From positions 1 through 64,000 of the forward strand of contig JBCBZW010000011.1 of NCBI GenBank assembly GCA_039815145.1: a stretch of DNA of 64,000 bases, in the 5' to 3' direction. Within the stretch, counting starts at the first letter, position 1, and each line of letters opens with the position of its first letter. The notes beneath the pieces were generated by a model, which saw nothing but the letters and a program-made list of their open reading frames with translations, ran no database searches and was not told the DNA's origin. Positions 6,550-51,057 of the stretch are shown here, piece by piece. Both the position numbers and the translations under genes were made by a program. The stretch comes from Pseudomonadota bacterium. Its GTDB lineage: Bacteria > Pseudomonadota > Gammaproteobacteria > Steroidobacterales > JBCBZW01.

Positions 6550-7647
6550 TCACGCGGGCTCGCTGACGAAGGACTCGAACTTGCTCTTGGTGATGGCCTT
6601 CTCGTAGGCCTCGCGCGGTTCGATCTGGCGCTCTTTCAGCAGGGCCATGAGCGCACTGTCCATGGTTTGCATGCCGAGGTTGCCCCCGGACTGCATAGCC
6701 GTCTCCAACTGGTCGAGCTTGCCCTGGCGGATGAGGTTGCCGACGGCCGGGGTGCTGACCATGATCTCGAGCGCCGCCACGCGACCTTTGCCGCCGGCTT
6801 TCTTACATAGCTGCTGTGAGATCACGCCCTTCAGGGAGGTGGAGAGCATGGAGCGGATCTGCGATTGCTTGTCCGCGGGAAAGGTGTTGACGATGCGGTC
6901 GACGGTGGAGGCGGCGCCGTTCGTGTGCAGCGTGCCCATGACCAGGATCCCCGTCTCCGCCGCGGTCACGGCGATGCCGATGGTCTCGAGATCGCGCATC
7001 TCACCCACCAGGATCACGTCCGGGTCCTCACGCAGGGCCGAGTGCAGGGAGGCGGCGAAGCTCTTCGTGTGCGAACCCACCTCGCGTTGACTCATCAGGC
7101 ACCCGCGCCGCTCGTGGGTGAATTCGATCGGATCCTCGATGGTGAGGATGTGCCCCTTCCGTTCCTTGTTGATGAAATCGATCATCGCCGCGAGCGTGGT
7201 GGACTTGCCCGAGCCCGTCTTGCCCGTGACCAGCACCAGCCCCTGCTTGTGCCGACACATGCCTTGGACGACATCGGGCAGGTTGAGCTCCTCCAACGTC
7301 AGGGCCTGCGAGGGAATCGCGCGCATGACCGAACCGATGCCGCCGATGTGGCGAAACACGTTCACGCGAAAGCGTGAGAGCCCCTCGATTTCATAGGCGA
7401 AGTCCGCGCCGTCGTGCTGGTCGAAGAGCGTCTGCTGGCGCGCCGGCATGATCGCGAACAGGGCCTCGCGCAGGGCGACCGGCGAGAGCTTCTCGTCGGA
7501 CACGGGCTCGAGATCGCCGTAGCGCCGCACCCGCGGCGGATCGCCCGCGAGCAGGTGCAGGTCTGAGCCGTCCTGCTCGATCATGGTACGCAGGAAGCGA
7601 TCGATGCTGAGCTTCTCGCCCGTGCTGGCAGTGGTGTCGGTGCTCAT
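6550..7647 (-). CDS. PilT-family type IV pilus retraction ATPase (paralogue 1)
   Basis: Cytoplasmic hexameric ATPase that powers disassembly of type IV pili, 365 residues. After the N-terminal PAS-like domain there is Walker A GKTGSGKST, an Asp box (TIEDPIEF), Walker B (DVILVGEMRD) and a His box (GTLHTNGAASTVDRI). The C-terminal motif reads AVGNLIRQGK where PilT has AIRNLIRE, so this is the better match of the pair to a retraction-competent PilT. Its ATG overlaps the stop of the second PilT-like gene by four bases. It is third in an operon led by a HEAT-repeat kinase. It could be the PilT or PilU partner; I cannot decide which, so no symbol is given. Confidence 0.9.
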   Translation of the reverse strand: MSTDTTASTGEKLSIDRFLRTMIEQDGSDLHLLAGDPPRVRRYGDLEPVSDEKLSPVALREALFAIMPARQQTLFDQHDGADFAYEIEGLSRFRVNVFRHIGGIGSVMRAIPSQALTLEELNLPDVVQGMCRHKQGLVLVTGKTGSGKSTTLAAMIDFINKERKGHILTIEDPIEFTHERRGCLMSQREVGSHTKSFAASLHSALREDPDVILVGEMRDLETIGIAVTAAETGILVMGTLHTNGAASTVDRIVNTFPADKQSQIRSMLSTSLKGVISQQLCKKAGGKGRVAALEIMVSTPAVGNLIRQGKLDQLETAMQSGGNLGMQTMDSALMALLKERQIEPREAYEKAITKSKFESFVSEPA

Positions 7648-8744
7648 GCGCTCTTCTCCCCCTGTTGCATCTGCGGCAGCAGATCGAGATCGGTGACGTA
7701 GCGTTCGAAGGGCTTCTTGTTCGCCGCGAACAGGAAGGCCTCGTCGGGGTCGACGGTCTTCGCCTTCACCGCCTCAAGCAAGGCCTGATCCATCAGCTGC
7801 ATGCCCTGATCGCCGCCGGTTTGGATGATCGAGGGGATCTGGTGCGTTTGGTCCGTGGTGATCAGCTTGGCGATGGCGCGGTTCGAGACCATGATCTCCT
7901 GCACGGCCGTGCGCCCGCGTCCGTCCGGCGTCTTCAGCAGGATCTGACTGATCACCGCCTGCAAGCTCTGGGACAGGAAGGCCTTGGTCTGCTCGCGCAG
8001 CTCCGCCGGCAGGGCGTCGAGCACTCGGTCAACGGTTTTGACAGCTCCGGTGGTGTGCATGGTGCCGAGCACCAGGTGCCCCGTCTCCGCCGCCGTCATG
8101 GCCATCGAGATGGTGACGGGGTCGCGCATCTCACCGACCAGGATCACGTCGGGGTCTTCGCGCAGGGCGGCGCGCAAGCCGTCCGCGAAGCTCTGCAGGT
8201 GCGAGCCCACCTCGCGCTGAATCACCTGTGATTGCTTGCTCGGGTGAACGAATTCGATGGGGTCCTCGAGGGTGAGGATGTTGAGCTTTCGGGTCTCGTT
8301 CAGGTGATTGATCATCGAGGCCAGGGTGGTCGACTTACCCGTGCCCGTGGCGCCCGTGACCAGGATCATGCCCTGGTGCATGTCGCACAGCTTCTCGATG
8401 ATCGGCGGCAGGTTCAGCTTCTTCATGCTGGGGATGTCGTTGGGGATATGCCGCAGCACGGCGCCGACACCGGTCGCCTTGTGGAATACGTTGGCGCGAA
8501 AGCGTGTGCCTTCGGCGGTGACGTAGGAGAAGTCGAGATCTTCGCCGGAGGCGAGGCGCGCCTGCTGCTGTGTCGTGAGCACTTCGCTGATGTAGGTGTT
8601 CAGCTCCGTCGCGCCAAGCTCACGAAATTTGATCGGTAGGAGGTCGCCGCGCATGCGCAGCATCGGCGGCACGCCCACCGCGAGGTGAACATCGGAGCAG
8701 CCTTGCTGCAGGCCGAGTTTCAGGAAGGCATCGATACGGGCCAT
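7644..8744 (-). CDS. PilT-family type IV pilus retraction ATPase (paralogue 2)
   Basis: Second PilT-like motor ATPase, 366 residues, with Walker A GATGTGKST, Asp box TLEDPIEF, Walker B DVILVGEMRD and His box GTMHTTGAVKTVDRV. The retraction motif AIRNLIRE of classical PilT is altered to AIAKLITT, so its mechanical role may differ from paralogue 1. PilT/PilU pairs, in which PilU needs PilT to act, are known in Pseudomonas and Vibrio, but both proteins here resemble PilT more than PilU. The gene begins five bases after the stop of the HEAT-kinase gene and overlaps paralogue 1 (ATGA), so all three are probably made from one mRNA. Confidence 0.9.
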   Translation of the reverse strand: MARIDAFLKLGLQQGCSDVHLAVGVPPMLRMRGDLLPIKFRELGATELNTYISEVLTTQQQARLASGEDLDFSYVTAEGTRFRANVFHKATGVGAVLRHIPNDIPSMKKLNLPPIIEKLCDMHQGMILVTGATGTGKSTTLASMINHLNETRKLNILTLEDPIEFVHPSKQSQVIQREVGSHLQSFADGLRAALREDPDVILVGEMRDPVTISMAMTAAETGHLVLGTMHTTGAVKTVDRVLDALPAELREQTKAFLSQSLQAVISQILLKTPDGRGRTAVQEIMVSNRAIAKLITTDQTHQIPSIIQTGGDQGMQLMDQALLEAVKAKTVDPDEAFLFAANKKPFERYVTDLDLLPQMQQGEKSA

Positions 8745-8749
8745 TCTGG

Positions 8750-11206
8750 TCAGTCCTCTTCGGCGGGCTGGTCGCTGAGCTTTTCCATCAGCCGCGACAG
8801 GTCGCGGGTGACGTACTCCATCGTTTGGTAGCGCCGGTCCGGCTGCACCATCATCAAGCGCTTGACCAGCTCGGAGACGGACTCCGGCAAGTCTGGGTTC
8901 ACCTCGTCGACCGGCTTGGCCGTGCCCTGCACGTGGGCGTACATCACCGCCATCTGATCGCCTTCCGCGTAGGGCGGTCGACCGGTGAGCAGTTCGTAGA
9001 GGATGACGCCGAGGGCGTAGATGTCCACGCGCTGGTCGATCTCCTTGCCCAAGATCTGCTCCGGGGCCATGTACTTCGGTGAACCGATTACGTAGCCCGT
9101 CTTCGTGAGGTCCGTCTCCGCGTTCATCACCGACGACACGCCGAAGTCCACGATCTTCACAAGATCTGCCTGGTTGACCAGGATGTTGGCGGGCTTCAGG
9201 TCGCGGTGAACGATCTGTTCCTGGTGCGCCACTGTCATCCCTAAGGCCACATCGTGGGCGATGCGCAGGGCGCGCAGCATGGGCACGGGCTGTCGATCGG
9301 CCACCTCGGCGGTCAAGGGGTTCGATGGGAAGTACTCCATCGAAATCGCATTGAGGCCTTCGAGGGATAGGAAGTCGTAGAGCCGGATCACGTTTCGGTG
9401 AGTGATCTTGCGCGCCAGGCGCACCTCCTGTACGAAGCGGCGCATGGTTTCCTGGTCGTTGGCGATGCTCTTGTTGAGGAACTTGAGCACCAGCTTCTCG
9501 TCCACCACCGTGTCGCTCACCAGGAGCACCGTGCCGAAGGCGCCGCGGCCGATCTGTTTGATGAACTCGTAGCGCCCGTCGATCATGTCGCCGGGGTTGA
9601 GGTGGGCGATATCAAAGCGCGACGCGGCGGCCGCCGCATCCGGCAACGGCGGCGGTGTGCTGGTGGGCGAGGGCACCGTCTCACCCAACAAGGCCGCCAG
9701 TTGATCGGCGTCGGGAACTTCGGCCAGCAGGGTGCGCGAGGGATTGCCGAACTGGGCCGCGCTGTCCGTGCTCACCGTGTCCGGGAAGCGTTGATCGAGG
9801 CTGCGTACGGCATCCTTGATGGCCAGGATTACCTCCGTGTCGCTGCTGTTCTCGGCGGCGATGCGGGTGCGCAGGGTGGGTGCGAGGTCCTTGTCGGCCA
9901 GGCGCACGACGGTGTTGATGGCCTCGATCTTGACCGACTTGTCCGGCGCCTGAATCAACGGCATCAGATGGGGAACGACGCGACGATCGCCGAAGGACGC
10001 GAGGGCTCGGATCACGGCCGGAGCCGAACTCGGGGCGGTGCGCAGCATGTTCACCAGCGCCGGTACGGCCTTGCGATCGCCGATCTTGGCCAAGGCGTCG
10101 GCAGCGCGCTCGCGCACCCACCAGTCATCGTCCTGGGTGGCCTTGATCAGGTAGTCGAGGGCGCGCTTGTCCTCGGTGGTGTTCAAAATCTCGATGACCG
10201 CGCGACGGATCTCCTCGTCCGGGTCGTTGAAGAGCGAGAGCACCGCATCCACCACGCGCGGGCCGCCGATGGAGGCGAGGGCGTCCGTGGCGCGCGAGCG
10301 CACCCACCAGTCGTCGTCGCGCAGGGCGGAGAGCAGGTCCTTCACGTTCTCGGCGGTGCCGATCTCGTTGAGCACTTCCACCGCCGAGCGCCGCGCGTAC
10401 TCGTTCTCATCCTTGAGCACGGCCACCAGGTGCTGGGTGGTCTCGGGGTGGTTCAACTCGGTGATTACCTCGACGGCGGCGTTCTGCACATCCACGTCGG
10501 GATCCGTGAGCATCTGGCACAGGCGGGTGATGTTGATGCGGTTGGGCATTCGCGCCATGCCGCGGATCGCCGCGCTGCGCACGCCGCGGTCTTGATCATC
10601 GAGCTGGCGGGCCAGGGCGCTGGCCACGTCGTCCCGCGGGAAGCGGCCGACGATCTCGGTGATCGAGCGGCGCACGTCACGGTCGGAACCCGTGAGGCGG
10701 TCGAGCAGGTCGGGCACCAGGGACTCGGTGGCCAGATCGCTCAGGATGCGCAGGAGCGCTTCCTTGTCCTTGCCGTCCACCTCGTAGGCGTAGCGCAGGA
10801 GTTGGCGCACATCCAGGCGGTCTTTTTGCGCGTCCAGCACCTCGAGCAGGCGTGAGCGCGCGACCTCCTGGTCTTCCAGCAGGTCGAGGAGGTTGTTGGG
10901 ATCGTAGCTACGCCGACTGGCCATCGCCCACGCTGCGCCTTGGACCACCTTGGGGTTGTCGTGGCGCAGGGCGTCGCGGAAGTGGCGTAGGGATTTTTCG
11001 TCGAGCAGGCGGCCCAGCGGCTCGATGAGCAGCATCATCTGCTGGCGATCCGCGTCGGCCAGCGTGCCGAGCAGGCGCGGCACGGCACCTCCGCCCAGCT
11101 TGGCGATACGTTCCACCAGCGCATTGACCTGCTCCGGGGAGCCGCCGTCGAGCGAGGTGAGCTCGGCGATCAGCTTCTCCGCCTGCATGCCCGCAAGGAG
11201 TTTCAT
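8750..11206 (-). CDS. HEAT-repeat protein with C-terminal Ser/Thr protein kinase
   Basis: A two-part regulator of about 818 residues. Residues 1-480 are a long run of HEAT-like helical repeats (recurring units such as DDDWWVRSRATDALASIG and DDDWWVRERAADALAKIG), a protein-binding solenoid. A Pro-rich linker follows, then a Hanks-type kinase: glycine loop GRGAFG at 553-558, catalytic Lys575, HRDLKPAN at 667-674, DFG at 687-689 and an APE motif. No transmembrane helix is evident, so it is probably cytoplasmic. I chose the ATG at 11206 because GGGAAAG lies just upstream; an in-frame ATG at 11257 lacks this. It directly precedes two PilT motor genes, which suggests (inference) that it phosphorylates or scaffolds the pilus retraction machinery. 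Confidence 0.92.
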   Translation of the reverse strand: MKLLAGMQAEKLIAELTSLDGGSPEQVNALVERIAKLGGGAVPRLLGTLADADRQQMMLLIEPLGRLLDEKSLRHFRDALRHDNPKVVQGAAWAMASRRSYDPNNLLDLLEDQEVARSRLLEVLDAQKDRLDVRQLLRYAYEVDGKDKEALLRILSDLATESLVPDLLDRLTGSDRDVRRSITEIVGRFPRDDVASALARQLDDQDRGVRSAAIRGMARMPNRINITRLCQMLTDPDVDVQNAAVEVITELNHPETTQHLVAVLKDENEYARRSAVEVLNEIGTAENVKDLLSALRDDDWWVRSRATDALASIGGPRVVDAVLSLFNDPDEEIRRAVIEILNTTEDKRALDYLIKATQDDDWWVRERAADALAKIGDRKAVPALVNMLRTAPSSAPAVIRALASFGDRRVVPHLMPLIQAPDKSVKIEAINTVVRLADKDLAPTLRTRIAAENSSDTEVILAIKDAVRSLDQRFPDTVSTDSAAQFGNPSRTLLAEVPDADQLAALLGETVPSPTSTPPPLPDAAAAASRFDIAHLNPGDMIDGRYEFIKQIGRGAFGTVLLVSDTVVDEKLVLKFLNKSIANDQETMRRFVQEVRLARKITHRNVIRLYDFLSLEGLNAISMEYFPSNPLTAEVADRQPVPMLRALRIAHDVALGMTVAHQEQIVHRDLKPANILVNQADLVKIVDFGVSSVMNAETDLTKTGYVIGSPKYMAPEQILGKEIDQRVDIYALGVILYELLTGRPPYAEGDQMAVMYAHVQGTAKPVDEVNPDLPESVSELVKRLMMVQPDRRYQTMEYVTRDLSRLMEKLSDQPAEED

Positions 11207-50898: not shown

Positions 50899-51057
50899 GC
50901 GCCCGCCATTTTGGCATAGCAGCAACCGGTGGCTCCAGCAGCCGCCAACACTTCTCACACACGTCGTCACACTCCGGTTGGGTGCCTGGCCGATCCTGCA
51001 AGGGTCCGCGGGTTTCCGGGTGGGGCGTGTGGAGGCCTAACCCGGAGAGAAAATCAG

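Follow-up and report, generated by a model that had tools for sequence, protein, structure and literature searches.

The 64,000-nucleotide stretch analysed here (the window: positions 1 to 64,000 of the forward strand of contig JBCBZW010000011.1, assembly GCA_039815145.1) comes from a bacterium of the order Steroidobacterales (Gammaproteobacteria; Pseudomonadota) with a source genome of 6.0 Mb in 295 contigs, and carries on its minus strand a gene for a HEAT-repeat serine/threonine kinase followed by genes for two ATPases of the PilT/PilU family. We refer to the three products as KIN, PILTa and PILTb, names coined for the present analysis only. A previous note on this DNA, made from its letters alone (the original prediction), had read the trio as an operon through which a kinase might control the retraction of type IV pili. 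The conserved kinase–motor module, with its two PilT-family clades, is real and wider than that prediction had claimed.

A soluble kinase and a separate pair of motors

The features of the locus are as follows.

8750–11206, minus strand: KIN, soluble HEAT-repeat Hanks-type Ser/Thr kinase, 818 residues from the ATG
7644–8744, minus strand: PILTa, PilT/PilU-family ATPase in a clade of its own, without a strict AIRNLIRE motif, 366 residues
6550–7647, minus strand: PILTb, PilT/PilU-family ATPase in a clade of its own, with an AIRNLIRE-like motif and Ile for the first His of the His box, 365 residues
10091–10462, minus strand: KIN residues 249–372, four HEAT units with two D-x-D-W-W motifs, a candidate docking surface on the grounds of conservation
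9104–9148, minus strand: KIN residues 687–701, from the DFG motif to the activation-loop Thr701

The layout originally described, an 818-residue HEAT kinase followed after a gap of 5 bp by one PilT-like gene and, with a 4-bp overlap, by a second, is correct to the base. A longer open reading frame of KIN starting at TTG (835 residues, to 11257) was discarded as mechanical and the ATG start was used. None of the three proteins contains a hydrophobic segment (19-residue Kyte–Doolittle maxima of 1.25, 1.00 and 1.54 for KIN, PILTa and PILTb, respectively), in line with the description of KIN as cytoplasmic.

Pfam searches recovered HEAT_2 in six stretches of KIN and Pkinase at residues 546–799 (E 5.6e-54). 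The predicted model (mean predicted local distance difference test score of 84.7) consists of a helical solenoid (approximately residues 2–473), a disordered linker (480–529) and a kinase fold (541–811); the best solved-structure match of the latter is PknB, and the 50 best matches of the fold search with KIN all cover the kinase domain only. The catalytic lysine, the alpha-C glutamate and the HRD, DFG and APE motifs are all present, identifying KIN as a Hanks-type Ser/Thr kinase by sequence, and K575, E594, D669, D687 and the activation-loop T701 are invariant in all 72 full-length orthologues, so that the intact kinase claimed for the window is found in every full-length orthologue aligned. 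Position 703 is Thr or Ser in 71 of these 72 proteins, and we take T701 and T703 to be the counterparts of the PknB activation-loop phosphothreonines. Assignment of KIN to the PASTA kinases (PknB/Stk1) was rejected on the basis of its score (271 versus 450 bits at NF033483, PknB_PASTA_kin) and the lack of a hydrophobic segment.

Conservation among the 72 orthologues is unevenly distributed along the solenoid. Residues 249–372 reach 0.72–0.75 per 31-residue segment, equal to the catalytic core, and include two invariant D-x-D-W-W motifs, whereas the remainder of the solenoid stays at 0.33–0.56; we read this region as a candidate binding surface. A second sequence feature, a T-[LMK]-[LI] motif in the linker (residues 476–533; approximately 9608–9781, minus strand), is present in 34 of 39 sequences from the order, compared to a mean of 3.4 and a maximum of 11 in shuffled sequences, and in five of 33 KIN from outside the order, the compared rows being related to each other. 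It represents a possible phosphosite or docking motif and is offered as a lead only.

Both motors pass the curated cut-off of the PilT/PilU family TIGR01420 (319 bits), PILTa with 422 bits and PILTb with 457 bits. The original assignment to PilT motors thus stands at the level of the family, but the two genes are not the canonical pilT and pilU of this genome, which are located together with a third paralogue on another contig (G000:C24) beside yggS (the names yggS, pilT and pilU were assigned from sequence and gene order). In a tree of 88 motor proteins (27 PILTa, 27 PILTb, 12 PilT, 10 PilU and 12 of the third paralogue), PILTa and PILTb each form one clade, with ultrafast bootstrap and Shimodaira–Hasegawa-like approximate likelihood ratio test values of 100/100 and 100/98, respectively, and are weakly sisters to each other (94/78); all groups being separate, the identity of either motor with canonical PilT or PilU is ruled out. 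The third PilT-family gene directly follows canonical pilT-pilU (G000:C24:24412-27791; L098:7401-10822) in all 12 canonical loci of the order that were examined.

The Walker A lysine and the glutamate of the GE motif are invariant in all 27 rows of each motor, and the Asp box is intact in both. The AIRNLIRE motif, which the available portion of PMC6762196 describes as present in PilT and absent in PilU, is lacking in its strict form from PILTa and occurs in a degenerate, AVSNLIRE-like version in PILTb. In PILTb, the first His of the His box is replaced by Ile, a position at which the other groups keep His; both His-box histidines are needed for function according to the same source (PMC6762196, in part). 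PILTa and PILTb may work as a pair.

Conservation of the trio within and beyond the order

A KIN orthologue (E ≤ 1e-110) was identified in 45 of the 59 genomes sampled from the window's order. Forty-three of them keep the three genes in order, comprising the window, 40 of 42 further loci and genomes G004 and G046; in the other two (G053 and G002) the trio is cut by a contig end. Among the 14 genomes of the order without KIN, 13 also lack PILTa; the exception is G032, in which a fragment of PILTa lies where a contig ends. In the window, metG starts 84 bp downstream of PILTb on the same strand and mrp lies divergently upstream of KIN. This wider block, including DCD, MRP, METG and Rnf, is also kept within the order, and gene order there proves little by itself. 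Four genomes of family f12 (G012, G025, G037 and G049) encode a PilB-like ATPase just under the cut-off and no PilT over its cut-off.

More informative is the class sample of 369 genomes, in which KIN matches (E ≤ 1e-60) were found in 51 genomes, 46 of these outside the order. Forty of the 46 loci were examined, and 35 hold the three genes in order on the same strand (at one of them, L161, the contig breaks off within PILTb), with DCD, MRP and METG within the stretch in none of the 40. Beyond these 35, G265 carries the trio and G243 has KIN adjoining PILTa, whereas G340 (KIN interrupted by a run of N) and G355, G367 and G242 (contig ends) could not be judged. Three genomes (G211, G321 and G416) encode a diverged kinase only, located in G321 near a TfpZ-like pilin accessory gene. 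The diverged HEAT kinase at L163:8558-11008 is 28% identical to KIN and lies near a TfpZ-like gene (6600-7385), without PILTa or PILTb. PILTa (E ≤ 1e-110) is present in 45 of the 369 genomes, and all 45 also carry KIN. In a draw of 398 genomes across the phylum, by comparison, the only trio was the window's own, indicating that the module is rare at that scale.

The coding sequences are closely coupled in many lineages: KIN–PILTa overlaps of 1 or 4 bases recur in distant families, some members of the order show overlaps of 13–14 bases, and few distances exceed 100 bases. Among the matches listed (80 of 569), the named relatives recovered with the KIN alignment are genomes assembled from metagenomes, whose labels read Woeseiaceae, Woeseia, Steroidobacter, Steroidobacteraceae, Chromatiales or Lysobacterales, or go no further than Gammaproteobacteria, Proteobacteria or Pseudomonadota. 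The complete trio stands in order at 72 of these 80 loci; at six, PILTa is followed by the contig end, and two end 43 bases or less from KIN. Some of the 80 belong to the same genomes as the order and class samples, and the sets are therefore not independent. The evolutionary distances of the three proteins are correlated (0.84–0.89 over 68 loci), which is equally expected from vertical descent and was not used as evidence. A plasmid search returned kinase-domain matches only. Overall, the three-gene order is conserved across the order and in many other families of the class, and is by no means unique to the genome in which it was first noticed.

As for the surroundings of the trio in the window, the original remark that no other pilus genes are near agrees with a Pfam scan of 22 further open reading frames (part of those in the window), which yielded none. 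A t44 RNA (Rfam RF00127) is located at 50936–51041 on the plus strand, and the source genome is rich in Ser/Thr kinases (23 Pkinase matches).

Proposed phosphorylation-based control and its alternatives

The neighbourhoods of the 35 distant trio loci provide the functional context. An FHA gene lies directly downstream of the trio on the same strand in 16 of them, all confirmed by Pfam FHA coordinates; these loci, spread over 10 families, are related to each other and hence do not represent 16 independent events, but with 1 to 17 FHA matches per genome in the 35 genomes, adjacency to the trio is far above chance. A PP2C-like gene is divergently oriented upstream in nine loci, the one member checked being Stp1-like (227 bits; cut-off 230). 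Six loci have a divergent FHA-GAF-HD gene and six show a match to a cyclase-FHA cluster, with one member of each confirmed by Pfam, and an EAL-GGDEF gene is found near some of the loci. Finally, a gene for a 158-residue protein with weak likeness to DUF6812 directly precedes KIN in 29 of the 35 loci (e.g. L149:8228-8701); a profile search found it as a single copy beside KIN in three of four distant genomes and in none of 11 genomes of the order.

The intact kinase of all full-length orthologues, together with the FHA readers and the phosphatase at related loci, supports control based on phosphorylation, and we consider it reasonably probable that KIN, PILTa and PILTb are inherited as a unit, within which KIN, as a soluble Hanks-type Ser/Thr kinase, governs a PilT-family pair of its own. 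In such a unit, the D-x-D-W-W patch of KIN (residues 249–372) would dock on PILTa/PILTb hexamers or on the machine driven by them, KIN would autophosphorylate its activation loop at Thr701 and Thr703 and then phosphorylate the motors or a docked partner, and this modification would act as an on–off switch for the second motor pair, alongside a constitutive PilT/PilU. Where present, FHA proteins could read the phosphothreonine and a Stp1-like PP2C could erase it. Direct phosphorylation of the motors by KIN is, in our view, the leading candidate mechanism.

Several observations weigh against this reading. A search for motor-specific phosphosites in the 27 rows of each motor produced three Ser/Thr candidates (T272 and T351 of PILTa, T270 of PILTb), none of them strong. 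FHA, PP2C and the 158-residue gene are beside the trio in none of 43 loci of the order, the window included, and this order-wide absence of FHA and PP2C limits the transfer of the phospho-signalling idea to the window. In two genomes of family f25 (G220 and G421), KIN and PILTa reside on different contigs among other neighbours. Four genomes of the order (G020, G029, G033 and G044) encode canonical PilT and PilB and neither KIN nor PILTa; hence, pili do not require the trio. Furthermore, in the trio-carrying genome G101 (loci L283 and L284), a single closed contig of 2.4 Mb that is 99% complete, the only PilB/GspE-family ATPase at E ≤ 1e-150 is GspE of a type II secretion system (T2SS), encoded within a full gsp operon approximately 7 kb from the trio (gsp names from sequence and order), and the ~840 kb sampled (~35% of the genome) yielded neither canonical PilT nor PilU, and no second copy of PilC/GspF or of a secretin. 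With PilB missing at this threshold, the trio may in some lineages drive a machine other than a type IVa pilus. Of the originally proposed kinase control of pilus retraction, the phosphorylation-based control is supported by the intact kinase and by the FHA and PP2C genes, and G101 raises the question of whether the target is a type IVa pilus in every case.

Signals could also flow in the reverse direction, with the motors or the filament load as input and the kinase as output: the solenoid would sense the state of the motors at the pilus base, and FHA proteins, cyclase-FHA and FHA-GAF-HD proteins among them, would carry the kinase's report of surface contact to second-messenger pathways. The 16 downstream FHA genes, the Pfam-confirmed cyclase-FHA and FHA-GAF-HD members, the EAL-GGDEF genes and the lack of a strong motor-specific phosphosite are all compatible with this scenario, but within the window's order no reader gene adjoins the trio and the sensing of load is hypothetical, and we regard it as unlikely, while preferring control of the motors by the kinase.

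With regard to the filament so controlled, PilB is over the cut-off in 38 of the 45 KIN genomes of the order and in 32 of the 40 PILTa genomes outside it, most of the shortfall falling in fragmented assemblies, and the driven filament is most likely the type IVa pilus. A broader and distinctly speculative proposal is that the trio is a separate kinase-gated module that can serve two or more kinds of type IV filament machine, among them the T2SS pseudopilus in lineages without PilB, with KIN as writer, PP2C as eraser and FHA as reader timing filament pull-back or reporting load. Still less probable is that the motor pair serves another type IV filament machine, such as the T2SS pseudopilus, instead of the type IVa pilus. 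The gene content of G101 fits this possibility; nonetheless, it is a single genome of which about a third was sampled, most of the PILTa genomes outside the order have PilB over the cut-off, and T2SS-type ATPases are also encoded in genomes of the order that lack KIN (e.g. G012 and G025).

KIN might alternatively act as a scaffold or chaperone only, building or placing the motors, with vestigial catalysis. Although the solenoid patch is the most conserved non-catalytic region of the protein, the invariance of the catalytic and activation-loop residues and the PP2C and FHA genes at related loci make this very improbable. That the three genes are neighbours through chance or inertia of gene order, without a shared function, is hardly credible: the whole DCD-to-Rnf block is conserved in the window's order, but outside it this flanking block is lost and the trio kept, which rules out plain gene-order conservation as the explanation, and PILTa was not found without KIN in the class sample.

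How type IV filament retraction is switched is still an open question, and additional PilT-family motors of no known use are encoded in many genomes. With KIN, whose gene is almost always accompanied by those of its own two motors, there is a named candidate regulator with named residues. Should the module work without PilB, as hinted by G101, this would suggest motor-driven retraction in a machine that is not known to have a retraction ATPase.

Comparison with known systems

The closest counterparts of the motors are PilT and PilU of Vibrio cholerae and Pseudomonas aeruginosa (PMC6762196, available portion), with which PILTa and PILTb share the TIGR01420 family, the tandem arrangement, Walker A, the Walker B glutamate and the intact Asp box, and from which they differ in their separate clades, apart also from the third paralogue, in the lack of a strict AIRNLIRE in PILTa and in the His-box Ile of PILTb. 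PilT2 of Neisseria is likewise a third PilT paralogue that modulates retraction; it is set beside the motors of the trio by description, the accessible parts of PMC10790696 and PMC6762196 mentioning no linked kinase. According to a study of Woeseiaceae, PilTIJU genes are present in every genome it covers, and the part of its main text available mentions neither a kinase nor HEAT (PMC12175321).

On the side of the regulator, the kinase domain of KIN resembles that of PknB/Stk1, but KIN has a cytoplasmic HEAT solenoid in place of transmembrane and PASTA parts. The FimX/PilZ control of PilB parallels the trio in that a large cytoplasmic regulator works with a pilus motor; it differs in that the assembly ATPase is targeted through cyclic di-GMP, and the review of PilB control names two-component kinases and cyclic di-GMP, with no Ser/Thr kinase in the portion at hand (PMC11656802).

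Protein kinases acting on pilus-based motility offer the nearest functional parallels. SpkA and SpkB of Synechocystis are Ser/Thr kinases required for such motility; SpkA is tied to pilin expression, PilT goes unmentioned in the available text of PMC11863333 and PMC10651672, and the likeness to KIN is by description. MasABK of Myxococcus xanthus includes a protein kinase that is encoded in an operon and acts on social motility driven by pili, but MasK is anti-phosphotyrosine-reactive, membrane-associated and encoded with MasA and MasB instead of PilT motors (PMC3546991, in part). The original prediction called kinase control of type IV pilus retraction rarely described outside a few systems. 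No description of a HEAT kinase joined with PilT, of PilT phosphorylation, or of the module with its two motor clades was found in the open-access literature of PubMed Central; for pilus-based motility as such, kinase control is already known from MasK (PMC3546991) and from SpkA and SpkB (PMC11863333, PMC10651672), as far as the accessible parts of these sources go.

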